Position numbers and translations under genes: made by a program
Part shown: positions 30,861 through 43,491 of the stretch, piece by piece
How the letters are laid out: every line of letters begins with the position of its first letter
Numbering within the stretch: position 1 is the first letter of the stretch
Source: Bacteroidales bacterium
GTDB taxonomy: Bacteria > Bacteroidota > Bacteroidia > Bacteroidales > UBA932
Direction: 5' to 3'
Length of the DNA stretch: 44,611 bases
Assembly (NCBI GenBank): GCA_017455065.1
Contig: JAFTBU010000053.1
Coordinates: forward strand, 1-44,611
The notes under the pieces: generated by a model
Told to the model about the DNA's origin: nothing
What the model saw: the letters and a program-made list of their open reading frames with translations, nothing else
The model's database searches: none

Positions 30861-33800
30861 ATGAAAACAAAAAGAATCAGTAGCTTCCTGCTGATGGTTG
30901 CCGTTTTCATGTGCTTCGGCGTTTCCGCCCTTGCACAGGAGAGGCACATCAGCGGTAAAGTTGTCGACAGCAATGGCGATCCCATCGCCGGTGCAGTCGT
31001 GATTGCCAGAGAAGGAGCTTTCACCGTGGGTCAGAGCACAGACCTCGACGGTAATTACTCCATCGACGTCCCCGCATCGGTCAGGACTCTGACCTTCTCC
31101 ATGCTCAGCTATGAGGACGTGACTGAGACCATCGGCGGCCGCAGCGTCATCAACGTGGTCATGCCCGATGCCTCCCTCTATCTCGAGGAGGCCGTCTCCA
31201 TCGGTTACGCCAAGGTCAAGAGGAAGGACCTCACCGGATCCTCCGTTTCCGTGGCCGGAAGCGAGATCGCCCAGGTCCCTGTGACCACCGCCGCCCAGGC
31301 CCTCACCGGTAAGGCTGCAGGTGTCAACATCACCACCCAGAGCGGCGCCCCCGGTGCCAGCGTCAACATCACCGTCCGCGGCGGTACCTCCATCACCCAG
31401 TCCACCTCTCCTCTTTATATCGTGGACGGATTTGCCATGGAGAACGGTCTGCAGAATGTCGACATCAATGATATCGAGAGCATCGACGTCCTCAAGGACG
31501 CTTCCGCCACCGCTATCTACGGTGCCCAGGGTTCCAATGGTGTAATCCTCATCACCACCAAGTCCGGCAAGGCCGGCAAGACCCAGGTCACCTACAACGG
31601 TTACGTGGAATTTGAGAAACTCGGCAAGAAGCTCGCCCTCCTCGGAGTCGAGGACTATGTCAAGTACCAGTATGAGTTCATGGAGATGGCCGGCAAGATG
31701 TCCAGCTGGATCAACATGTTCGGCGATTTCGGCGCTCCCAGCAACGCCTACAGCTACATTTCCAGCAAGTACGGCAACGCCACTCCCATCGACTGGCAGG
31801 ACGCTGTCTTCGGAGGCAATGCCATGACCCAGGCTCACAACGTGAACATCACCGGTGGCAACGAGCAGACCCGTTTCATGGTTTCCTACAACCATATGGG
31901 CCAGAACGGTATCATGGAGAAGCACGGTTACACCAAGAACTCCATCCGCGCCAAGATCAACCACGAGCTCTTCAAGGGTGTCCGCATGGACTTCAACATC
32001 AACTTCAGCGACACTGACGTGGAAGGTGGCGGCTCCCTCGGCGGAACCCTCAAGAAGACCATCCTCCAGCCTGTCACTGGCGGCGTCCGCTACACCAACG
32101 AGCAGATGCTTACCACCGACCTCGGCGACGAGATGCTCGCAATCGACTCCCAGTACGACCTGAACAACCCCATCCTTGAGAACAGGGCTGTGGACCAGCA
32201 CAACTACACCCGTCAGTTCGGTGCCAACGGAGGAATCGAGTTCGACTTCCTCAAGCACTTTACCTGGCGTACCGCCGGCAGCTATTCCTGGTATTCCACC
32301 CGCAATACCTACTGGGACAACGGTACCACCCGCAGTGCCCAGAACTACAAGACTGACACCCAGACCACAGGAGTCCATCCTTGGGGCCGTCTGAACCATG
32401 GCGAACGTCATTCTTACCAGATAACCAACACACTGAATTACGCCCAGCAGTTTGACAAGCACTCCCTCAACGTCCTCCTCGGACAGGAGACTCTGTTCAA
32501 CAACTCCATCAGCGACAACAATACCTACTACGGCTTCGCCGAGAACAACTTCGGCCTGAACGACATCAGCATGGCTCAGTCCTACAACCGTTCTTCCGGC
32601 TACAGCAGCAGCGCCCTGGTGTCCTTCTTCGGCCGCGTTATGTACAACTACGCCGACCGTTACCTGCTGACCGTCTCTCTCCGTGCCGATGGTTCCTCCA
32701 AGTTCGCCAAGGGCAACAAGTGGGGCTTCTTCCCCTCTGCTTCCGCAGCGTGGAGGATCTCCGAAGAGGATTTCTACAAGGACAGCGGCATCAAGAACGT
32801 CATGAACCGCGCCAAGCTCCGTATCGGTTACGGTACCTCCGGTAACTGCAACGTGGACAACAACATGTACGCCACCGACTACGGTTCCGGCCACTACGCC
32901 ATCAACAAGACCGACGTCTCCACCCTCAAGCCCGGCAACACCGTGGGCAACCCCAAGCTCAAGTGGGAGACCACCACTTCCTTCAACGTGGGTCTCGACC
33001 TCGGCTTTGCCCGCGACAGGGTCAACCTCAGCGTGGACTGGTACAACAATGAGTCCCAGGACCTGATCATCCGTAACAACATCCCCACCTCCACCGGTTA
33101 CAGCTACCAGTACCAGAACATCGGCGCCATCCGCAACCGCGGTGTCGAGCTCGTGCTCAACACTGTCAACGTCGAGACCCGCGACTTCCGCTGGACCACC
33201 GATTTCAACATTTCCTTCAACCGTTCGAAGGTGCTCGCCATTTACGGCGAGGGTGACAACGACTACTTCACCCGTTCCGAGGACGAGGGTCACTGCAACT
33301 ACATGATCCGCGTCAATGAGCCCATCGGCCAGTTCTACGGATATCAGTACGACGGTATCTACACCACCGACATGTTCGACCAGCTCGCCGACGGCTCCTA
33401 CCTCCTCAAGGACGGTATCGCTTATGACAAGAACCGCAAGCGCGCCGACATCAAGCCCGGTGACTTCAAGATCAAGCGTCAGAGCGAGCTCGTGGATGCC
33501 GACGGCAATCCTCAGTTCAGCACCACCGGCAACGACGACCGCGTCGTCCTCGGCAACGCAATGCCTCTGTTCACCGGCGGTCTCACCAACACCATCACCT
33601 GGAAGGGCTTCGACCTGAACGTGTTCATGAACTTCAGCTACGGCAACAAGATCTTCAACATGTCCACCCAGCGCTTCATCGGTCCCTACCTCCCCAACCA
33701 GACCATGGTGGCCGAGATGGGCAACCGTTTCACTCTCATCGACCCTGCTACCGGCAAGGAGACCAAGGACCTCGCCCGTCTGGCTGCCCTCAACCCCAAC

Positions 33801-34127
33801 CAGAAGGATGCGAACATGATGTGGAGCATCAACTCCGACAACAAGCTCGCCATCACCTGCCCTATGGACAAGTACATGGAGGATGGTTCTTTCCTGCGTC
33901 TGAACACCATCACCCTCGGCTACACCCTGCCCAAGCAGCTCACCAGCAAGTGCCACATCGACATGCTGCGCATCTATGCTACCCTGAGCAACATCCACAC
34001 CTTCACGAAGTACAGCGGATATGACCCTGAGGTCTCCAACTCCAGCAGCATCCTCGCCGCCGGTATGGACAACTCCGCATATCCCCGTGCCAAAGGTTGT
34101 GTCATAGGTCTCAATATCACTTTCTAA
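30861..34127 (+). CDS. SusC/RagA-family TonB-linked outer-membrane transporter
   Basis: 1088 residues. Signal peptide (about 1-26), carboxypeptidase-D regulatory-like domain (about 28-110, HISGKVVDSNGDPIAGAVV), a TonB-box-like segment (LEEAVSIGYAKVKRKDLTGS), the plug with the SusC signature (VNITVRGGTSITQSTSPLYI, IDVLKDASATAIYGAQGSNG), then a long TonB-dependent barrel to the terminal strand GCVIGLNITF. It imports large oligosaccharides together with SusD. It is the first gene of the pair, with SusD starting just 6 nt after its stop. The neighbouring GH28, CE8, GH105 and GH43 genes suggest a pectic or arabinan ligand; that is inference. Confidence 0.96.
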   Translation: MKTKRISSFLLMVAVFMCFGVSALAQERHISGKVVDSNGDPIAGAVVIAREGAFTVGQSTDLDGNYSIDVPASVRTLTFSMLSYEDVTETIGGRSVINVVMPDASLYLEEAVSIGYAKVKRKDLTGSSVSVAGSEIAQVPVTTAAQALTGKAAGVNITTQSGAPGASVNITVRGGTSITQSTSPLYIVDGFAMENGLQNVDINDIESIDVLKDASATAIYGAQGSNGVILITTKSGKAGKTQVTYNGYVEFEKLGKKLALLGVEDYVKYQYEFMEMAGKMSSWINMFGDFGAPSNAYSYISSKYGNATPIDWQDAVFGGNAMTQAHNVNITGGNEQTRFMVSYNHMGQNGIMEKHGYTKNSIRAKINHELFKGVRMDFNINFSDTDVEGGGSLGGTLKKTILQPVTGGVRYTNEQMLTTDLGDEMLAIDSQYDLNNPILENRAVDQHNYTRQFGANGGIEFDFLKHFTWRTAGSYSWYSTRNTYWDNGTTRSAQNYKTDTQTTGVHPWGRLNHGERHSYQITNTLNYAQQFDKHSLNVLLGQETLFNNSISDNNTYYGFAENNFGLNDISMAQSYNRSSGYSSSALVSFFGRVMYNYADRYLLTVSLRADGSSKFAKGNKWGFFPSASAAWRISEEDFYKDSGIKNVMNRAKLRIGYGTSGNCNVDNNMYATDYGSGHYAINKTDVSTLKPGNTVGNPKLKWETTTSFNVGLDLGFARDRVNLSVDWYNNESQDLIIRNNIPTSTGYSYQYQNIGAIRNRGVELVLNTVNVETRDFRWTTDFNISFNRSKVLAIYGEGDNDYFTRSEDEGHCNYMIRVNEPIGQFYGYQYDGIYTTDMFDQLADGSYLLKDGIAYDKNRKRADIKPGDFKIKRQSELVDADGNPQFSTTGNDDRVVLGNAMPLFTGGLTNTITWKGFDLNVFMNFSYGNKIFNMSTQRFIGPYLPNQTMVAEMGNRFTLIDPATGKETKDLARLAALNPNQKDANMMWSINSDNKLAITCPMDKYMEDGSFLRLNTITLGYTLPKQLTSKCHIDMLRIYATLSNIHTFTKYSGYDPEVSNSSSILAAGMDNSAYPRAKGCVIGLNITF

Positions 34128-34132
34128 TCAAC

Positions 34133-36013
34133 ATGGCCATGAAAAAGATAATTAACATACTTTCTGTCGCCATCCTGGGTCTCGGCCTTGTGGCCTGCAA
34201 CGATTTCCTTGAAATCCCTTCCCAGACCAAGTTCGACAGCGGCTCCATCTTCCAGACTGAGGGCCGTGCTGAAATGGCTGTCCTCGCCGCTTACCCGGCC
34301 GGATACAACCGTGAGATGTGGTACCAGCTCGGTATGGGCACCGACGAGGTGATCTCCACCGAAGGTCTCACCAACTCCAAGAACCAGATCGGCAACTACC
34401 TGCTTTCAGGTTCCGTCACCGGTACTTCCACCTACACCTCAGCATATTCCGCCATCGAGTACTCCAACGTGTGCATCGCCGGTCTCCAGGGCATGGAGCA
34501 GACTGACAATGTCCGCAGGATGCTGGGCGAGAGCTATTGCATCCGTGCCATGGCTTACCTGAACCTGGTCCGCTACTGGGGCGACGTGCCTTACACCCGC
34601 GACCCTGTGGCCACCCAGACCACTTTCGCTTCTTCCCGCGTGAGCCGAGACGTCATCCTCGACGACATGGTGGCCGACCTCCAGGAAGCAGTCGAACTGC
34701 TGCCTTGGAAGAGCGACATCATCAACTTCACCCCTGAGCGCTACTGCAAGGAGTCCGCTTACGCCCTGCTTGCAAGGGTTGCCCTGTACAATGCAGGCTA
34801 TTCCCTCCGTTGGGACCTGAACACCTATGCGGAGTCTTCCCTCAAGGTCGCCAGGCGTGACGATGCCGCCAAGGTGAAAGAGATGAACAAGATCGCCATG
34901 GATGCCTGCCAGGCTGTCATCAGCAGGGGTTCTTTCTCCCTGAGCCCTGACTACAAGCAGATCTTCCTCGATCTCGTGAACGGTGCATACAACCAGGAGT
35001 CCATCCTCGAGCAGGGCCAGTACGGCACCAACTGCAACGTGGAGACCGGTTACACCAACGGCGCTTTCAGCCACACCAGCTCGCTGTACGGCAAGAGCCA
35101 GCCGGCCATGAAGATCAACCCCGCCCTGTATTTCAACTACGGTGACGGTGACACCCGCCGCGACGTGGCCATCTGCACCTATGCAGTGGACAACAACGGT
35201 GACATCCACCTCCACCCTTACGGCGGATTCTACATCGGCAAGTTCCGTCCCAGCTGGAAGACCGCCATCGGCACCGCTGCCAACAAGCGCGACATCAACT
35301 GGCCTTGGTTCCGCTACAGTCACATCCTGCTGATGTACGCTGAGGCTGCCAATGAGTACTACGGTGCTCCTACCGCCGAGGCAATCGACGCTCTGAAGGC
35401 TATCCGCACCCGTGCATACGGCGGCGACGCCTCCAAGATCGGCACCATTCCCACCGACCACGACGACTTCCGCAGTGCTATCATCCTCGAGAACAAGCTC
35501 GAGTTTGCCGGAGAGGCATGGCGTCGCACCGAGCTCTGCCGCTGGGGTATCCTCCGCGAGACCCTCCTCGAGAACAAGCAGCAGATCCTCGACATTGTCT
35601 CCCACAGCGGAGCATATGCAAACTACGACCGCTACCGCATCTATACCCCCGTCGCCGGTTACTTCGGATTCAAGGATGCCACCATCCCTTACGAGTCCGT
35701 CACCAAGACCCAGCTGACCGCAGAGGAAATCGCCGCCTACACCGCTCAGGGCAAGATTGTGCTTGACATGAACGGCAAGGACGTCGCCAAGAACACCGAC
35801 AGCGCCAACCTCATGGGTATGTTTGAGAAGGCTGCCGACGGCACCATGATCTTCAAGGGCGCCGAAGGATTCGCTACTTCCAGCGATGCTTCCTGGTACT
35901 CCAGCCTTTTCCGCGGCCTGCGTACCATCGGTTCCGAGCTCTGCCCTCTGAACCAGACCAGCGTGATCGACATCAACCCCGGCTTGGAAGGACAGCAGCT
36001 GCCCGGATATTAG
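34133..36013 (+). CDS. SusD/RagB-family glycan-binding lipoprotein
   Basis: 626 residues. It has a lipoprotein signal (MKKIINILSVAILGLGLVAC) and the SusD layout: N-terminal TPR helices (SYCIRAMAYLNLVRYWGDVPYT), a middle ligand-binding region, and the RagB/SusD C-terminal block (GEAWRRTELCRWGIL). Two ATGs are possible, 34133 and 34139; the first is reported. It binds glycan at the cell surface and docks on SusC. A strong terminator follows at 36044, which isolates it from the convergent signalling operon. Confidence 0.95.
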   Translation: MAMKKIINILSVAILGLGLVACNDFLEIPSQTKFDSGSIFQTEGRAEMAVLAAYPAGYNREMWYQLGMGTDEVISTEGLTNSKNQIGNYLLSGSVTGTSTYTSAYSAIEYSNVCIAGLQGMEQTDNVRRMLGESYCIRAMAYLNLVRYWGDVPYTRDPVATQTTFASSRVSRDVILDDMVADLQEAVELLPWKSDIINFTPERYCKESAYALLARVALYNAGYSLRWDLNTYAESSLKVARRDDAAKVKEMNKIAMDACQAVISRGSFSLSPDYKQIFLDLVNGAYNQESILEQGQYGTNCNVETGYTNGAFSHTSSLYGKSQPAMKINPALYFNYGDGDTRRDVAICTYAVDNNGDIHLHPYGGFYIGKFRPSWKTAIGTAANKRDINWPWFRYSHILLMYAEAANEYYGAPTAEAIDALKAIRTRAYGGDASKIGTIPTDHDDFRSAIILENKLEFAGEAWRRTELCRWGILRETLLENKQQILDIVSHSGAYANYDRYRIYTPVAGYFGFKDATIPYESVTKTQLTAEEIAAYTAQGKIVLDMNGKDVAKNTDSANLMGMFEKAADGTMIFKGAEGFATSSDASWYSSLFRGLRTIGSELCPLNQTSVIDINPGLEGQQLPGY

Positions 36014-36043
36014 CAGTTGACTTCCTGAAAGGGATAATATGAA

Positions 36044-36077
36044 AGAGGCTGACCAGACCGGTCAGCCTCTTTTTTTA
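36044..36077 (+). terminator. Rho-independent terminator of the SusCD operon
   Basis: A perfect 11-bp stem AGAGGCTGACC (36044-36054) / GGTCAGCCTCT (36060-36070) with a 5-nt loop, followed by a T-run. It may also end the convergent minus-strand operon, whose last stop is at 36092. Confidence 0.95.
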
Positions 36078-36091
36078 TTGGGTACGGCGCA

Positions 36092-36520
36092 TTAAATATG
36101 TCCGCCGCCTTCTGCTTTGAGCTGCTCGTCCACTTTCTTCTTTTCGTCCATCAGCAGGACCAGCAGCCAGTCTTTCTGCTCTTCGCTCAGGCCCAGGTCG
36201 CGGCAGGCGCTCTCGTAGCGGTTGATGACCGCCTCCTGGTAGCGGTGGTACACCATCGATTTGCGGATTTCATCCTCGATGGCGTCGTGCTCGATCTCGT
36301 AACTGTCCTTGTAATAGTCTTTATAGGCCTTTTCAGAGGAATAGTTGAGGCAGAAGTAGAACATGCCCGTGGCCAGGATTATGATGCCTATGACGCCCAA
36401 TACGAAGGGTACTCTCTCTATCAGGGCCAGCATGCCCAGGGTGCCGCCGACGAAGAACAGCAGGAGGGCCAGCAATTCGTTCCGGTGGTATTTGAATATG
36501 TTCTTGGGATTCAGTTTCAT
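36092..36520 (-). CDS. Small membrane protein with charged helical tail
   Basis: 142 residues: two TM helices (about 17-37 and 40-60) and a charged, helical cytoplasmic tail (KAYKDYYKDSYEIEHDAIED, LGLSEEQKDWLLVLLMDEKK). I do not recognise a family. It is the last gene of the six-gene signalling operon, and its ATG overlaps the TGA of the TPR protein gene (ATGA, 36520-36517). The compact design suggests a modulator or partner of the membrane proteins encoded upstream. Confidence 0.75.
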   Translation of the reverse strand: MKLNPKNIFKYHRNELLALLLFFVGGTLGMLALIERVPFVLGVIGIIILATGMFYFCLNYSSEKAYKDYYKDSYEIEHDAIEDEIRKSMVYHRYQEAVINRYESACRDLGLSEEQKDWLLVLLMDEKKKVDEQLKAEGGGHI

Positions 36521-37845
36521 AACTTGATAGTGTTCGATTTGCGGTTCTGGAGTATCTTGATCTTCATGTCATTCTCGGCTTCCTTGGCGTCCAGGGCTTT
36601 CTGGTAGGCCTGGCGTGCCAGCAGGCTGTGGCCGTTCTGTTTCCTGAGGGTTTCGAGGTTTTCGCGCAGCTGCCACTGGGAGACCAGGATGGAGAAGAAG
36701 GCGATGGCAAACATCACCAGGAAGCCCAGCAGGATCGTGTTCTCGTTCTGGTGGCGCAGCCTTTCGGCGTCGGCGCGGAGCTGGGCGTTGTTCATCTCGG
36801 CATCGAGTATGGCCATGTCTTCGTTCTGCACTTTGATGTAGATCGAGTCTTTCACGTCCATGAGGCGGCTGAGCTCGCCGTAGGCGTCCGGAAAGGCGTT
36901 GAGGTCGGCGTAGATGCCGTGCTTGAGGGTGTGCCGGGCCTTGTCGGTCGACAGCGAATCGGCCACCGTCAGGGCTTCCCTGAAGAGGCGGCGCGAGCGC
37001 AGGTAGCACACGTCCATTTCGTAGCGGTCGTCGGCTTCAGCCTGCACTTTGTACAGGGGGTCGGCCACGAGCTTGTCGTAATTTTCCCAGAGACGGTCCC
37101 ATTCGTTCTCGGCGTAATACAGGAAGCAGCGCGTCATCAGGACTTTTATGCGCAGAGTGGGGAAATAGTCCTGGTAGTACTCAGCGCCGTTGCAGAATTC
37201 CACGGCCTTCCCGAATTCGCCCTGGCGTATGTATTCCTGGGCGATGAGGATGTAGAGGTTGGGCAGTTCCTGCTCCGCACGGGCTTCCTTGCAGAATTCG
37301 GCGGCTTTGGTGAAGTTTTCGACCGCCAGGTGGGGATTGGTCCTGTAGCTCTGTATGAGGCCCACTATGCGGTGGGAATACATCTTTCCGAGGGCGTTCT
37401 GCGCCTCTGTGGCGTCGCGCATCAGCTCCCGCGCTTCCAGCATGGCTTCGGACACCCTGCCGTCGTGGATCAGGAATTGGCAATACTCATGTACGGCCGA
37501 GTACAGGAAGGCCCTGTATTCCTTGTGGTCCTCGAGGGTGGACTTGATTTCCGCCATCACTGCGTCCATGCGGGCGGTGTCCCCCTGGGCGAAGCGCACG
37601 GGCATCTCCAGGGACAGCGCAAGGCACTTGAAGCGGTAGTCCAGCCTGGCCTCACCGACCCGGTACAGCGAGTCCGCGAGGGGCAGATTGTCAGGATTGT
37701 ACATCTGCATCCTGCCGTAGGCATAGCGCTCGAAGCTGTCGTGGTCCACCCGGAGGCGGTTCACGATCTGCGCCGTTCCGGTCAATGCCGGCAGGAGTGC
37801 CAATGCTGCGGCGAGGGCCGCTCTGAGCAAGGGACGGAGTGTCAT
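36517..37845 (-). CDS. TPR protein with TM helix and cytoplasmic coiled coil, sensor without kinase domain
   Basis: 442 residues: signal peptide (MTLRPLLRAALAAALALLPA), periplasmic TPR helices (to about 330), a coiled-coil stretch (about 335-368), one TM helix (about 369-390, TILLGFLVMFAIAFFSILVS) and a short cytoplasmic coiled coil (about 391-442). This is the layout of the TPR histidine kinase two genes upstream but with the HisKA and ATPase domains missing. It could pair with that kinase through its coiled coils, or be a scaffold. The start at 37845 is set by the ATGA overlap with the response-regulator stop and the signal peptide. Confidence 0.85.
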   Translation of the reverse strand: MTLRPLLRAALAAALALLPALTGTAQIVNRLRVDHDSFERYAYGRMQMYNPDNLPLADSLYRVGEARLDYRFKCLALSLEMPVRFAQGDTARMDAVMAEIKSTLEDHKEYRAFLYSAVHEYCQFLIHDGRVSEAMLEARELMRDATEAQNALGKMYSHRIVGLIQSYRTNPHLAVENFTKAAEFCKEARAEQELPNLYILIAQEYIRQGEFGKAVEFCNGAEYYQDYFPTLRIKVLMTRCFLYYAENEWDRLWENYDKLVADPLYKVQAEADDRYEMDVCYLRSRRLFREALTVADSLSTDKARHTLKHGIYADLNAFPDAYGELSRLMDVKDSIYIKVQNEDMAILDAEMNNAQLRADAERLRHQNENTILLGFLVMFAIAFFSILVSQWQLRENLETLRKQNGHSLLARQAYQKALDAKEAENDMKIKILQNRKSNTIKL

Positions 37846-38264
37846 TTTCCGGCTTTTGCCTCGATCAGCTGCATCTGGGTGTTGACGCAACTGAGCAGTT
37901 TTTCCATGATTATGGGCTTCATGATGAAGTCGTTGGCTCCCAGGTTGAAGCCCTTCACCACGTCATCGTTGGAGTTGAGGGCGGAGAGTATCACGATCTG
38001 TATGTCGGCAGTCTCGGGGTCCGCGCGGAGCCTGCGTATGACTTCGAAGCCGTCGATGCCGGGCATCATGATGTCGAGCAGGATCAGGTCGGGTTTCTGC
38101 TCTGCGACAGCTTCCAGGGCCTGCTGGCCGTTGGCTGCGGTGCGGAGCTTGAAATTGAATTTGGAAAGCATCTTCTGGACCAGCAGGAGGTTCAGGGGAA
38201 TGTCGTCCACTGCCAGCACGTTGAATCTGGAGTAGTCGTGGTCTTGTGCGTAGAATGGTACCAT
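37842..38264 (-). CDS. Stand-alone response-regulator receiver domain
   Basis: 140 residues with one REC domain. The acidic pair Asp20-Asp21, phospho-acceptor Asp64 (LILLDIMMPG), Ser94 and Lys116 (IMKPI) are all present. No output domain is attached: the C-terminus ends with a short helix at about 140. It is 3 nt after the histidine kinase stop, so that kinase should be its donor. As with CheY-type proteins the output must be by protein contact, and the TPR/TM/coiled-coil protein encoded next (ATGA overlap) is a natural candidate. Confidence 0.92.
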   Translation of the reverse strand: MVPFYAQDHDYSRFNVLAVDDIPLNLLLVQKMLSKFNFKLRTAANGQQALEAVAEQKPDLILLDIMMPGIDGFEVIRRLRADPETADIQIVILSALNSNDDVVKGFNLGANDFIMKPIIMEKLLSCVNTQMQLIEAKAGK

Positions 38265-38267
38265 TGG

Positions 38268-40223
38268 TTATGCGGTTTTTTCGTTTTTGTTCTCAGTCTT
38301 GGGGGTTACGGGGACGCTGAAAATGAATCTGGCGCCTGGCCCCTGCCATGTAGTGTCGAGATACACCTTGGCATCCATCCTGGAGGCGATGTCGCGGCAT
38401 ATGCTCAGTCCGAGGCCTGTGCCCTGGACGAATTCATTGAGCTTGGTGAAGCGGTTGAAGATGGCTTCGGCCTGGTCGGCGGGCACTCCCGTACCGGTGT
38501 CGGTGACGGATAAAGTGACGTAGCCGGGTTCTTTGGTGAGCGAGCTCCTCAGTACGATGGAGCCCTTCTGGGTGTGCTTGCAGGCGTTTGTGAGCAGGTT
38601 TATCAGGATCTGCTGCACGCGCCTGGGATCGGTCGTGAAATTGAACGGCTCGGGAGACTCGGGCTCGTAGCTCATGGTCACTCCGGGCTGGAGGCGGTGC
38701 TCGGTGCTGGAGATGGCGGCGTTGCAGATGAAGTGCAGCTCGCTGGGCTCGTAGGTGATGCGGTATTCTCCTGAATCCATCGCGGAGGCGTTCAGGATGT
38801 CATCCAGGAGCATCGTGAGCATCTTGGAGTTGTTGATGATGTGCCCTGCGAATTGTTCTTTCTCTTCTTCGGGGAAGGTGCCGTCGGGGAGGCTGAGGAG
38901 CTGGGAGAAGCCCACGATGGCGTTCAGCGGAGTGCGGACTTCATGGCTCATGTTCTGCACGAAGCGGGTCTTGGCGGCATTGGCCAGGGTCACCTTTTCA
39001 TTGGCTTCCGCGAGCTGTTTGTTATGTCTCACCAGGGACATCTGGTGCATGGCCAGGAAGGTGATTACGGCCAGCAGGATGATGAAGAGCAGGATGACGA
39101 TCGTGCGGCTGTTGCGCTGCACCTGTTCCGCCTTGCTGTCCAGCTCTGCGTGGAGGAGCTGGTTGCCTATCCTGGCGTCCATTTCGGCAGCCCTTGAATT
39201 GGCTTTGGCCGAAAGGAGCTGTTCCTGTCTCCGGACCAGGACCTTTTCGAGGTTGAAAGCTTCGTCCTTGTATCCGAAAGCTTCGGCTATATTGGCTACG
39301 AATTTGAATTCTCTCACGCTGGAGAAATCGTTCGGGGTGATCTTGGAGGCGTCGAAAGAGCCGTCGATGATGGCGTCCAAGGTCTGGAACAGCTGCACCG
39401 CGCTCTTGCTTATGGTTGTAAGGCCGGGGTCTGCCAGGCAGTATTCCTTATGTTTCTTGTAGGCTTCCTGGTCTCTTTCGAAGGCTGACAGCTTGGCCAT
39501 GTAGTACTCACAGCGCAGTGTGTCCATATGCAATTTCGAAGTGGCATAGGCCTTCTCCACGTTGATCCTGAGCGAATCATTACCGATGGTATAGGTGTCT
39601 GCGAGGTCACAGTACAGCCTGGTGGGGCTCTGCCGCCTGATGACCGAGTCTTTGCTGGTGTTGTAAATATCCAGGGCTTTCAGGATGTAGTCTTTGGCGG
39701 ATATATAGTCGTTTTCTGCCACATAGGCCGAGATCATGAATCTGTAGCCCTGCCACATCCCGTACTCGTCCTTCCGGCTCTGGGCTGTGTGCAGCATTTC
39801 ATCGACCAGCTCCACAGACCTCATCCTCTGGTTGTGGTTGTAGAAATAATTCTTGGTGACTTCGTAGGCGTAGTAATAATACTGGTAGAAGCCATTTTCT
39901 TTGGCGATTCCCTTGAGGTCCTCGAACATCTTGAGTATTACCTCATCCTGCGAAGGAGTGGTAGAGACTCCTGTGGGGATGGCCCGGGAGGCGTTTTTCA
40001 GGATTTCGACGTAGTAGATGGTCAGGGCCTTCTTGTCTTTCCTCTCCACCGCCATCTTGTACAGCATGTCGGCGTTTTCCTGGAATTGCGGCTTGCCGAT
40101 GTACTGTTCGCATCTGTTTAAATAGAAATAGCACGAGTCGTCTATGTCATAAGCGTTGTTCTGCGCCCGGGTGCCGACGGCCGCAAACAAGGTCAGGAAT
40201 ATGGCCAGAAGTGTTTTTTTCAT
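38268..40223 (-). CDS. TPR-containing sensor histidine kinase
   Basis: 651 residues: signal peptide (MKKTLLAIFLTLFAAVGTRA), periplasmic TPR-like helices (to about 340), a coiled-coil segment, one TM helix (374-392), HisKA with His427 (FVQNMSHEVRTPLNAIVGFS), and HATPase_c with N-box (Asn546, INLLTNACKH), G1 (DTGTGVPAD) and G2 (GTGLGLSI). It is a complete kinase but lacks a fused receiver; the receiver is the next gene after 3 nt. I start at 40223 for the signal peptide. The AraC gene ends 4 nt before it. Confidence 0.95.
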   Translation of the reverse strand: MKKTLLAIFLTLFAAVGTRAQNNAYDIDDSCYFYLNRCEQYIGKPQFQENADMLYKMAVERKDKKALTIYYVEILKNASRAIPTGVSTTPSQDEVILKMFEDLKGIAKENGFYQYYYYAYEVTKNYFYNHNQRMRSVELVDEMLHTAQSRKDEYGMWQGYRFMISAYVAENDYISAKDYILKALDIYNTSKDSVIRRQSPTRLYCDLADTYTIGNDSLRINVEKAYATSKLHMDTLRCEYYMAKLSAFERDQEAYKKHKEYCLADPGLTTISKSAVQLFQTLDAIIDGSFDASKITPNDFSSVREFKFVANIAEAFGYKDEAFNLEKVLVRRQEQLLSAKANSRAAEMDARIGNQLLHAELDSKAEQVQRNSRTIVILLFIILLAVITFLAMHQMSLVRHNKQLAEANEKVTLANAAKTRFVQNMSHEVRTPLNAIVGFSQLLSLPDGTFPEEEKEQFAGHIINNSKMLTMLLDDILNASAMDSGEYRITYEPSELHFICNAAISSTEHRLQPGVTMSYEPESPEPFNFTTDPRRVQQILINLLTNACKHTQKGSIVLRSSLTKEPGYVTLSVTDTGTGVPADQAEAIFNRFTKLNEFVQGTGLGLSICRDIASRMDAKVYLDTTWQGPGARFIFSVPVTPKTENKNEKTA

Positions 40224-40227
40224 CTTC

Positions 40228-41280
40228 TTATTTGTGAAGGGCATCCCAGTTGGTAACCCATTGCTTGGGGGGCATGCCGGTGATGTTCTTGAAAGTATTG
40301 TTGAATGTCGATGCGCTGAGGAAGCCGCATTCGCGGGCGATCTCTTCCTGTCTTGCGTCCCTGTGGCTCAGGATGTATTCCTCTGCGTAGTCTATCCTGA
40401 GGGTGTTTATGAGCTCTGGGAAGCCGACTTTGTAGTTTTCGTTGACCATCTTGGAGACGTAGGTCTTGTTTGAATGGAGCTTCTCGGCCACTTCGGTGAG
40501 GGTGATGCCCGGCTGGAGGAAGATTCTCTCTTCGAGCAGCAGATGCTGGAATCTCGAGAGCAGGCTGTTCTCGTCGCCGTCTTCCAGCAGAGGGACGCTC
40601 ATCACCGGGGTTTCCGCCACCTCCGGCTCCTCTTCGGCCTCCGGGGCGGCCTCTACCTCGGGTTCCTCCTCCTGCTCTTCGACGACAGATGCCGCCTCCG
40701 GGGCGGCATTGTACCTCATCACGGCTCCGAGGTCCTTCCAGCCGAGCGGCTCATCCGTGCTGAACAGCAGGAAGAAGCCCAATATGAGCAGCAAGGGGCA
40801 CATGGCCCATGAGGCCCCGGGCCATTTCAGGGACAATAGCGCCAGCAGTGCCAGCGTCAGCCATCCCACGATGATGCCGGAGCGGTTTCTCTTTTTGCCG
40901 TCGGCTTTTGCCTGGTAAATCAGCAGGAATACCGCCAGCGCTCCGCCGGTGGCATACAGCATGATGGGGTAGAGCTCGATGTACAAGAAATACTGCAGCA
41001 GGACGAATGCCGCGGGGATGATCAGCCAGGTGATCTGGAGAAGCAACGGTGCCCGCCCGTTTCTGAGGCGGAGCATCAGGAGTACGGCCAGCGGGGCGAT
41101 GCAGATGGCGGCGGTTTCCCTGAGGAGGGTGGAGTTTTCAGCCAGGAAGTAAACCCCGATGGCGATCATCAGGGCCAAAGCCTGCCTGAAACTTTTCGCA
41201 CGAAAGGCTGTCATCACTAGGATGGCAGCCCATGTAAGGCATATCGCAGCCGGCAAGGATATTGTCGGTAGTGGATTCAT
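40228..41280 (-). CDS. Membrane-anchored AraC-family transcriptional regulator
   Basis: 350 residues: about seven TM helices in residues 8-175, a low-complexity acidic linker (about 200-223, Glu-rich), and a C-terminal AraC-type DNA-binding domain (about 255-345) with helix-turn-helix 1 near 261-281 (LTEVAEKLHSNKTYVSKMV) and helix-turn-helix 2 near 309-331 (RQEEIARECGFLSASTFN). The regulator would bind DNA from the membrane. There is no receiver domain, so the kinase in the same operon does not phosphorylate it directly in the usual manner. Its ATG overlaps the stop of the fimbrillin-like gene by one base (TGATG). Confidence 0.9.
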   Translation of the reverse strand: MNPLPTISLPAAICLTWAAILVMTAFRAKSFRQALALMIAIGVYFLAENSTLLRETAAICIAPLAVLLMLRLRNGRAPLLLQITWLIIPAAFVLLQYFLYIELYPIMLYATGGALAVFLLIYQAKADGKKRNRSGIIVGWLTLALLALLSLKWPGASWAMCPLLLILGFFLLFSTDEPLGWKDLGAVMRYNAAPEAASVVEEQEEEPEVEAAPEAEEEPEVAETPVMSVPLLEDGDENSLLSRFQHLLLEERIFLQPGITLTEVAEKLHSNKTYVSKMVNENYKVGFPELINTLRIDYAEEYILSHRDARQEEIARECGFLSASTFNNTFKNITGMPPKQWVTNWDALHK

Positions 41281-42368
41281 CAGAAGTCTTCGTTATCTTC
41301 GTAAATCTTTGTTTCCCAGTCGCTTACTGAGGCCGTGAAAGTGATCTCCTGGTACACTGAGCTGAGGTCCAGGCCGATGTGGAAGGTGTACTGCTTGCCG
41401 TTGGCGAAGACATTGCCGGGCAGCAGGCCGTAGAGCGCGTATTTGGCTACCTGGTTCTTGAGAGGCGGATAGGGGAATCCGTTCAGGGTGAAGCCCTCCA
41501 CGTCGTAGATGACTTCCACGTACTGCTTGCCGAGCTTGATCTCGTCGGGGATGGAGTAGTAGCGGGAACTTGCGCTCATTTCATCCACGAGGGTCTCGGT
41601 GCCCACGAATTTCTCATTGGCAGAACCCACTCCCACCTTGGCGTCTCCCTCGAACACCACAACGTCGCGGTAGTAGCCGACATGGTGCCAGAAGCCCCTG
41701 GGGGCGTTGAGGTCGTTGACGAAGGTGCCGGCGGAAGCGACGTTGTACACAGTCATCTTGCGCAGGTGGATGAGGCCCTGGAGCACATCGGTGGGGGTCA
41801 CGTCGCAGACTTTGTAGCCTATGTCGTTGGTGATGTGCTGGAACTCGAGGGGTATCATGTTCAGCTGGTCCACAGCCCTCTGCATGGTCTTGGACACCAG
41901 GGGACCGGCCTCGGTCTCATCGGTGCTGAAGGGGATGGAGTAGCCTGTATTGTCCTTTTCGTAGGAGACCTTGGTCACGTAAGGGTAGTAGGCGCTCAGG
42001 GTCACGTTGGACTGTGCCTTCCAGAGGTCGCCGCCGAACCAGCCGCTGTAGGAGCTGCCGTTGTTGAACACCTGCTGGTTGTCCAGGAGCAGGGTGTTGG
42101 TCTCGCTGTCGATGCCGATCAGGCCGAAAGGCTTGTCGGGATCCATGGTGGCGAGCTTGTCGGAGGTGTTGACTTCTGCCTTGGTCTTGGTGCCCGGGCC
42201 GGAAGAAAGGGTCTTTCCGTCCCTGGTCACGGTGATGTCGAAGTCGATCTTCTTGGGTGCGGAATCTTCGACGGGTTTGGGCATGGAATTATCTTCGAGC
42301 ACGGTGCAACCGGTGGCGAGGATGGCTAGGATGGCTCCTGTCAGGAAGAATGATTTTCGGTTCATCAT
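41280..42368 (-). CDS. Fimbrillin-family (Mfa-like) lipoprotein
   Basis: 362 residues with a lipoprotein signal (MNRKSFFLTGAILAILATGC, Cys21 from the second Met) and the pattern of the fimbrillin-like family: long beta-rich domain with LSAYYPYV, YSIPFSTDETEAGPLVS and a later EVIYDVEGFTLNGFPYP. Mfa-like proteins form or cap surface fimbriae by strand exchange. It is the first gene of the signalling operon and overlaps the AraC ATG, so it may be a sensor ligand, a product, or both. ATG at 42368 or 42365 are equally possible. Confidence 0.85.
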   Translation of the reverse strand: MMNRKSFFLTGAILAILATGCTVLEDNSMPKPVEDSAPKKIDFDITVTRDGKTLSSGPGTKTKAEVNTSDKLATMDPDKPFGLIGIDSETNTLLLDNQQVFNNGSSYSGWFGGDLWKAQSNVTLSAYYPYVTKVSYEKDNTGYSIPFSTDETEAGPLVSKTMQRAVDQLNMIPLEFQHITNDIGYKVCDVTPTDVLQGLIHLRKMTVYNVASAGTFVNDLNAPRGFWHHVGYYRDVVVFEGDAKVGVGSANEKFVGTETLVDEMSASSRYYSIPDEIKLGKQYVEVIYDVEGFTLNGFPYPPLKNQVAKYALYGLLPGNVFANGKQYTFHIGLDLSSVYQEITFTASVSDWETKIYEDNEDF

Positions 42369-42393: not shown

Positions 42394-42422
42394 CAAAGAT
42401 AGCTATTTTTTTTGATTTCAAA
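42394..42422 (-). promoter_or_regulatory. Promoter of the six-gene signalling operon
   Basis: On the minus strand: TTTG (42422-42419), 17 bp, TATCTTTG (42401-42394). Spacing is slightly short. The surrounding 42402-42520 is AT-rich with no other feature recognised. Confidence 0.55.
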
Positions 42423-42524
42423 AATTTTTTTGAAGAAATCGAATAAATTTTTTATTCGTCAAAAAACTGCGCCCCACACCTATATAATATGATAAAACAG
42501 GCAAATCAAAAAAGTGAAAAATAA

Positions 42525-42621: not shown

Positions 42622-43197
42622 ATGGAACAGAACAAAGAAATGACGGCTCAGCAGAGCCTTCAGCTCATCACCGAAACCTTCAACAAAAGCCGCAAGGGCA
42701 TCCTCCGCAACAGCGCAAAGTACTTCATGCTCTGGGGTGTGCTCCTCACCGTGACTTCCCTTGCCATCTATCTGCTGTGGCATTGCACCGGAAAGCCCCA
42801 GTGGAATTTCCTGTGGTTCGCCATGCCCCTGCTCGGCTATCCGCTTGCCGCCGTGCTCGGTAAGTACAATGTGGCCGTCCCTCAAAATGAGGTGAGCAAG
42901 ATGCTCAGCGGCGTTTGGTCCGTCTTCGGCGCTTTCGCCATCACCCTCAGTGCCGTCGCGGTAACCTTGGTCCCCATGAACGTGACCCTCATCATTGTCA
43001 TCATCATGGGTCTGGCCGAGTGCATGTCCGGCGTTCTCCTGAAAAACTGGCCCATCATCATCGGGGGCTTCCTCCTCGGAGTCGGCGGCGCCGTATTCGC
43101 CATGCTGGTGAAAAGTGATGCGCAGCTGCTCATATTCACGCTCGGCGGAGTCCTGCTGCTCCTCACCGGCATTGTCATGAAACTTCAGTACAAGTAG
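42622..43197 (+). CDS. Multi-pass membrane protein of unknown function
   Basis: 191 residues. An N-terminal hydrophilic helix (MEQNKEMTAQQSLQLITETF) precedes about six TM helices (from about 35 to the C-terminus). I do not recognise a family, although pairs of such a protein with a small winged-helix regulator recur in Bacteroidota. The regulator gene follows after 3 nt. Confidence 0.8.
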   Translation: MEQNKEMTAQQSLQLITETFNKSRKGILRNSAKYFMLWGVLLTVTSLAIYLLWHCTGKPQWNFLWFAMPLLGYPLAAVLGKYNVAVPQNEVSKMLSGVWSVFGAFAITLSAVAVTLVPMNVTLIIVIIMGLAECMSGVLLKNWPIIIGGFLLGVGGAVFAMLVKSDAQLLIFTLGGVLLLLTGIVMKLQYK

Positions 43198-43200
43198 CCT

Positions 43201-43491
43201 ATGTTTCCCAAATTAGACCCGCTCCTCCATTCGGAGCTCCGGCTCGCCGTGATGTCCATACTGGCCGGGGTCGATGAGGCCGACTTCACTTTCATCAAAA
43301 ATGAAACAGGAGCCACCTCCGGGAACCTCAGCGTCCAGATCGACAAACTGACCGCCGCCGGATATATCACGGTCGAGAAGGGCTTCAAAGGCAAGATGCC
43401 ACGTACCGTCTGCCGTATCACCCCAGCCGGCCAGGAGGCCTTCTCCAACTATGTGGGGGCCCTGAAAGAATACCTTTCGGCTGGTAAATAA
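43201..43491 (+). CDS. Winged-helix transcriptional regulator (HTH_34-like)
   Basis: 96 residues with a winged-helix fold of the HTH_34/MarR-like type: HSELRLAVMSILAGVDEADF, TFIKNETGATSGNLSVQIDK (recognition helix) and the wing GYITVEKGFKGKMPRTVCR. It lies 3 nt after the membrane protein gene and probably controls this operon. Inducer unknown. Confidence 0.88.
   Translation: MFPKLDPLLHSELRLAVMSILAGVDEADFTFIKNETGATSGNLSVQIDKLTAAGYITVEKGFKGKMPRTVCRITPAGQEAFSNYVGALKEYLSAGK

Follow-up and report, generated by a model that had tools for sequence, protein, structure and literature searches.

How might an operon pass a signal on to its target genes when its receiver protein has no output domain and its DNA-binding protein is predicted to lie in the membrane? 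The question is raised by six neighbouring genes of a gut bacterium, found on contig JAFTBU010000053.1 of the Bacteroidales assembly GCA_017455065.1 (its positions 1–44,611, a stretch of 44,611 nucleotides (nt), are called the window below). Together they probably encode a signalling relay that senses conditions outside the inner membrane and switches fimbriae on or off, with functions spread over separate proteins that related systems combine in one or two. The reading favored here, with a probability of roughly 0.6, is that the operon would provide the signalling for a system that controls fimbriae and works through a receiver lacking an output domain, a paralogue of the sensor without the kinase part and a membrane-bound AraC-type transcription factor. 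Comparison across relatives shows that the six parts, namely a kinase with an intact transmitter, an intact receiver, the kinase-less paralogue, a protein with two predicted transmembrane segments, a lipoprotein and a polytopic AraC protein, behave as one evolutionary unit. That the genes form one signalling system had been claimed in an earlier note made from this DNA; that note did not connect the system with fimbriae, now its likely target.

The operon and its products

Six open reading frames (ORFs) run on the minus strand from 42368 to 36092, and the gene set and five junctions of the earlier note are borne out by the sequence. The features are as follows (aa, amino acids; TPR, tetratricopeptide repeat):

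42394–42424, minus strand: promoter-like site (TTTG...TATCTTTG) 5' of the first gene, FIM; sequence and profile match
41280–42368, minus strand: FIM, fimbrillin-like lipoprotein, 362 aa, PF13149; ORF and Pfam
40228–41280, minus strand: AraC, membrane AraC-type regulator, 350 aa; ORF, Pfam and hydropathy
38268–40223, minus strand: HK, sensor histidine kinase; ORF, Pfam and hydropathy
37842–38264, minus strand: RR, stand-alone receiver, 140 aa; ORF and Pfam
36517–37845, minus strand: TPR, kinase-less protein with a TPR-like region, a transmembrane segment and a cytoplasmic tail, 442 aa; ORF and homology to the kinase
36092–36520, minus strand: SMP, small protein with two transmembrane segments, 142 aa; ORF and hydropathy
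36041–36073, no strand assigned: hairpin of 14 pairs 3' of SMP, between the operon and a convergent gene pair; terminator scan

FIM and AraC meet in TGATG (41282–41278). The AraC gene is followed by TAA, 4 nt and the kinase ATG at 40223, and the kinase gene by TAA, 3 nt and the receiver ATG at 38264; both the receiver/TPR junction (37845–37842) and the TPR/SMP junction (36520–36517) are ATGA overlaps. Chance does not explain the layout: relatives likewise have closely spaced or overlapping genes, and the TPR-SMP core is seen in 57 loci.

The kinase carries HisKA and HATPase_c domains (Pfam), one transmembrane segment (hydropathy), a signal-peptide-like N-terminus (judged by eye) and a TPR-like sensor region. 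Among 31 aligned kinases, with a mean column identity of 59%, H434 and the N-box and G-box residues N549, N553, D582, G584, G586, G608, G610 and G612 are invariant. For the receiver, Pfam finds Response_reg and nothing further, in agreement with the earlier statement that it lacks an output domain. In 30 aligned rows its mean column identity reaches 86%, D20, D21, D64 and K116 are invariant and an N-terminal extension, MxPxYAQxxD, is conserved; chains of DivK and Spo0F are among its Protein Data Bank (PDB) matches.

The kinase-less protein had also been counted as part of the system, and it proves to be homologous to the sensor half of the kinase: the two are colinear over the N-terminal half and transmembrane segment of the kinase (403 columns, 18% identity, E 1.6e-8 with hhalign). 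In one related genome, G030, a single 694-aa protein matches both the TPR protein (31% over 422 positions) and the kinase transmitter (50% over 269). The simplest reading is that the TPR protein, whose mean column identity among relatives is 63%, derives from a sensor kinase that lost its transmitter. A weak point is the TPR label itself: neither the window kinase (P0003) nor the window TPR protein (P0005) has a TPR match above the Pfam cut-off, and the label comes from some of their relatives (TPR_12 in one of 31 kinases, TPR_1 in four of 29 relatives of the TPR protein, other TPR models in single members). Against the PDB, the TPR profile gave no more than weak matches, to RapF (E 0.014). 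A further kinase-less copy of the kinase, about 400 aa long and with almost no cytoplasmic part, lies downstream of the kinase gene in 11 of the 57 loci (L085, L092, L094, L096, L098, L099, L101, L102, L105, L114 and L122). These shorter copies and the TPR protein are each related to the kinase, with no demonstrable relationship to one another (probability 6.3).

SMP has two transmembrane segments by hydropathy and a highly conserved charged tail ending in GGGHI, and its mean column identity is 80%. The window protein (P0006) has no Pfam match above the cut-off; in a set of 30 relatives, some match membrane-segment families weakly (best E 2.8e-4), and no credible PDB match was found (best E 0.035). 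The invariant His78 had prompted the idea of an HPt-like or phosphatase role, for which no support was found.

At the head of the operon, FIM passes the curated cut-off of the fimbrillin family PF13149, Mfa_like_1 (37.3 bits against 27). Cys21 is invariant in 26 aligned rows, the C-terminus WETxIyExNxxF is conserved and the mean column identity is 57%; no PDB sequence match was found. The AraC protein, described earlier as membrane-bound and free of a receiver domain, fits that description, with HTH_18 at its C-terminus (Pfam), no receiver domain and seven membrane segments predicted by hydropathy, two of them abutting. At 350 aa the window protein is a shortened member of a family of about 440 aa, with a mean column identity of 44%. 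The long relatives have a conserved cytoplasmic linker, about 75 residues in length, that connects the membrane part to the DNA-binding domain. In the window and in two related loci, L080 and L081, a shorter stretch that lacks the linker's pattern stands in its place, and the membrane part is reduced too; with these changes, the window operon may have come to function differently from the rest. In L153, L157 and L158, from genomes without SMP, a related receiver adjoins a different AraC-like and apparently multi-transmembrane family, F60 (about 410 aa), so a receiver with a membrane AraC protein may be a wider pairing.

Gene order and partners across relatives

Of 300 genus genomes, 58 contain SMP (59 matched; G121, at E 5e-4, was left uncounted), and a search through 393 genomes of the order found it solely in the window's own genome; as far as searched, it is confined to this genus. 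Scanning a species-genome collection for SMP, which detects close relatives only, gave 25 loci titled Bacteroidales or Bacteroidia, several of them from the rumen or other ruminant sites. The 58 genomes yielded 57 loci, the window included (G075, which holds an SMP fragment, gave none). Left out of the counts were L129 (the same region as L022), L131 (a split second SMP copy in G313), G121, G101 (FIM at E 1e-43, the 51 others being below 1e-100) and AraC matches weaker than E 1e-75.

The stable core that emerges is TPR-SMP, adjoining on one strand in all 57 loci, with the receiver linked to it in 54 and a window-type kinase present in 46. The receiver lies upstream in the same operon in 47 loci and is convergent in seven; the three loci without it are cut by contig ends (L107, L109) or lie on a 4.9-kb contig (L111). 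Among the 47 upstream receivers, the kinase gene intervenes once (L112) and lgt, for lipoprotein maturation, five times, each time between the receiver and TPR genes (L088, L095, L097, L100 and L115; identified by PF01790 in L097 and by clustering in the other four).

FIM lies inside the operon in 14 loci and is adjacent in another orientation in two more, and AraC lies inside it in seven. All six kinds of part occur in one locus in six cases, and the exact six-gene order in three (the window, L080 and L081). In L117 and L128, for example, the order is FIM-RR-TPR-SMP-AraC-HK, where AraC overlaps SMP by 4 nt and is followed by a different kinase; in L112, AraC-RR-HK-TPR-SMP runs divergently from FIM-AraC, and L020 has FIM-AraC-RR-TPR-SMP without a kinase, FIM abutting AraC. 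A single gene order as the conserved unit is ruled out by these counts. The conserved neighborhood that the earlier note had proposed to look for holds as a partnership of genes and fails as a strict six-gene order.

FIM and AraC turn up in a second locus too, in most cases beside a paralogue of the receiver. With the receiver alignment as query, at E 1e-40 or better, 70 of the 300 genus genomes were matched, many of them twice, and the second receiver (RR2) usually sits in a tight operon, FIM-AraC(~440 aa)-RR2. Of 26 AraC loci read outside SMP operons, 22 hold the complete FIM-AraC-receiver set, and 21 have fimbrial genes of the DUF3575/OmpA or DUF5119 families within the fetched stretch (one member of each family was checked by Pfam). 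Four of the remaining five end close by (L167, L169, L170 and L179), and L174 has a DUF5119 match about 6.6 kb farther along. FIM shares a contig with the TPR-SMP locus in 19 genomes, at a distance of about 5–35 kb (G157, where they adjoin, is excluded).

The window's own genome departs from this layout. It has no second receiver at E 1e-40, and its fimbrial operon, on contig C29, comprises a DUF3575/OmpA-like homologue, DUF5119 and three PF13149 genes, with no FIM, AraC or receiver gene beside it; FIM and AraC therefore sit with the core. Read against its relatives, the window operon is a composite in which two modules have been joined. The DUF5119 gene on C29 (L191:3558-4631) is interrupted by an in-frame TAG, and relatives hold intact copies.

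Co-occurrence points in the same direction, and the claim of one signalling system holds in evolution: among the 300 genus genomes FIM occurs in 51, accompanied by the receiver in all 51 and by SMP, the AraC family (E <1e-75) and DUF5119 in 49 each. DUF5119, found in 140 of the 300 overall, accompanies SMP in 55 of 58 genomes and the receiver in 60 of 70; AraC occurs without the receiver in eight of 63. In a tree of 39 FIM proteins, in which the convergent FIM gene of L094 and the divergent one of L112 were grouped as lying in the SMP locus, at least four changes between the two locations fall on well-supported branches. Because FIM has moved repeatedly between the two loci with the same partners kept, it is hard to explain the pattern otherwise than by the two loci working together.

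The FIM and fimbrial promoters also look alike, which suggests co-regulation. A TAnnTTTG site occurs in 27 of 39 FIM upstream regions. A 66-position profile was built from 18 FIM promoters, with eight loci held out, among them the window, L080 and L081; against 245 control upstream regions, the held-out window promoter (score 25.1) ranks in the top 2%, and those of L080 and L081 in the top 0.4% each. Upstream regions of fimbrial operons rank in the top 5% of these controls in 17 of 18 cases and those of kinases in none of 25, and the window genome's own fimbrial promoter, with no FIM gene beside it, in the top 3.3%. Scored against their own shuffles with the own locus left out, all 20 fimbrial regions reach p ≤0.017 (19 of them 0.003).

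The flanks of the operon hold further genes. A SusC-like/SusD-like pair, named by sequence appearance (30861–36013, plus strand), converges on the operon; the hairpin at 36041–36073 is terminator-like by the scan's rule on the plus strand only, opposite to the operon, and scores as a terminator for this pair. On the other side lies a divergent pair (42622–43491, plus strand) encoding a 191-aa membrane-like protein, with no Pfam match above the cut-off, and a 96-aa HTH_34 winged-helix regulator.

Proposed relay and alternative explanations

In the proposed relay, the kinase would use its periplasmic TPR-like domains, by themselves or in a pair with the kinase-less protein, to detect a protein or peptide, which might be FIM or fimbrial subunits. 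It would then phosphorylate the receiver on Asp64, and the phosphorylated receiver would act by binding to a protein partner, not on DNA. It would change the activity of the membrane AraC protein, directly or via the TPR/SMP pair, and AraC would drive its own operon and the fimbrial operon, which in the window genome is that on contig C29. Phosphotransfer to D64, action by binding (because no output domain is present) and AraC as the DNA-binding end are all inferred from the protein families concerned. The steps differ in strength: that the kinase signals to the receiver is highly probable, fimbriae are a likely target, and binding of the receiver to AraC is a tentative proposal that may well be wrong. 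What speaks for AraC is that the RR2 operons offer the receiver no other likely partner in the cytoplasm. A more elaborate version of the same relay, more speculative still, is a closed-loop fimbrial checkpoint, in which FIM would report the state of assembly to a mixed complex of the kinase with one or two kinase-less copies, the receiver would signal to the polytopic AraC protein, and a TPR/SMP hub would hold or release the receiver.

Several observations weigh against the favored reading. Any receiver-docking site in the AraC linker may be gone in the window, L080 and L081. No window-type kinase lies near the core in 11 of the 57 loci, among which contig ends truncate L021, L107 and L109, the contig of L111 is 4.9 kb long, and L103, L117 and L128 have another kinase beside the core. 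DUF5119 goes unmatched in three of the 58 SMP genomes and 10 of the 70 receiver genomes, and the Fisher p values for co-occurrence (about 1e-14 to 1e-47) are inflated, since kinship is ignored. As for the promoters, 10 of the 39 FIM upstream regions have no match to the TAnnTTTG site and two are too short; many FIM and fimbrial promoters share one intergenic region; and a few control regions equal FIM promoters in score. When each region is compared with its own shuffles, good scores are also reached by 20% (p 0.02) to 27% (p 0.05) of 244 controls, because the general promoter is part of the profile.

The most serious alternative, unlikely on balance though carrying real weight, makes the receiver a CheY-like switch that docks on the TPR/SMP pair and controls the assembly or export of surface proteins, AraC being an independent one-component membrane sensor. 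The RR-TPR-SMP association is far stabler than the link to AraC (54 of 57 loci, against seven whose operon includes AraC). Conservation is strong in the SMP tail, lgt stands between the receiver and TPR genes in five loci, and the conserved linker is lost from window-type AraC proteins. The receiver extension adds to this, as all 54 core-linked receivers have it, against one of 24 receivers beside AraC outside SMP operons when the same pattern is applied. Yet L159, L161 and L166 have it as well, and so it cannot serve as a marker for SMP binding alone; two of these (L159 and L166) are kinase-receiver pairs in genomes without a sure SMP, and RR2 copies accompany FIM and AraC with neither TPR nor SMP in the operon.

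An improbable alternative is an ordinary two-component system with an unlinked output regulator, TPR and SMP being accessory sensors and FIM and AraC joined by chance. Kinase and receiver do look ordinary to Pfam, and a kinase-receiver pair without TPR and SMP occurs in L154–L156, L159, L160 and L166; however, no searched genome has FIM without the receiver, and FIM has switched from one locus to the other more than once. That a hybrid two-component system (HTCS) was recently split into separate genes is very improbable. In its favor, the window kinase and receiver share a frame with only TAA CCA between them; against it, AraC lies upstream of the kinase with a membrane domain of its own, Pfam finds no HTCS-typical sensor domain in the kinase, and such neighbors (kinase-less copies counted) are in frame in 16 of 50 pairs, about the one-third expected by chance.

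If the fimbrial relay is correct, it would show how an output-less receiver can control a membrane-bound transcription factor, and it would give a function to the uncharacterized SMP family and to the sensor copies without a kinase part that occur in Bacteroidales, represented here by metagenome-assembled genomes.

Comparison with known systems

A literature search, with subscription papers mostly outside its reach, showed no description of the six-part set among the titles and abstract openings listed; its parts do have known counterparts. CheY, DivK and Spo0F are single-domain response regulators. Like them, the operon's receiver consists of a receiver domain alone with its catalytic residues kept; unlike them, it carries the MxPxYAQ extension and has the kinase-less sensor and SMP as its fixed partners. 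In the HTCS of Bacteroides, kinase, receiver and AraC-type DNA-binding domain are joined in one polypeptide. The operon instead has three separate proteins, the AraC protein with its own membrane domain, and is not an HTCS. The HTCS of Bacteroides are the subject of PMC11253607, as its accessible part indicates.

Transmembrane transcription regulators are reported, in the accessible text of PMC10269533, to be enriched in Bacteroidota. The AraC protein resembles them in joining a DNA-binding domain (HTH_18) to predicted transmembrane segments, seven in number, and is set apart as a polytopic AraC type; the accessible main text of that paper makes no mention of AraC, seven or polytopic.

The nearest described system found is FimS-FimR of Porphyromonas gingivalis, to which the present set, likened by description, is similar in outline. 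According to the accessible parts of PMC11053733 and PMC5706477, FimS is a TPR-sensor kinase that controls fimbriae and whose periplasmic domain is predicted to contain eight TPR motifs; the gene at the head of the fim cluster, activated by FimR, itself codes for a regulator. Like FimS on those descriptions, the operon's kinase is a predicted membrane protein, with a putatively periplasmic, TPR-like sensor (TPR below the Pfam cut-off in P0003), and it has a probable tie to fimbrillin-type fimbriae, seen in linkage, co-occurrence and promoter likeness. The effect of FimR runs through a further regulatory protein. FimR, as described, is a transcriptional regulator, whereas the operon's 140-aa receiver has no output domain, and the operon adds a kinase-less paralogue, a two-transmembrane protein, a fimbrillin-like lipoprotein and a membrane AraC factor. 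The signal of FimS was unknown to the authors of PMC11053733, going by its accessible part. As the operon itself carries a candidate signal, the fimbrillin-like lipoprotein, together with a kinase-less paralogue of the sensor, the question of what a FimS-type kinase senses becomes testable here.

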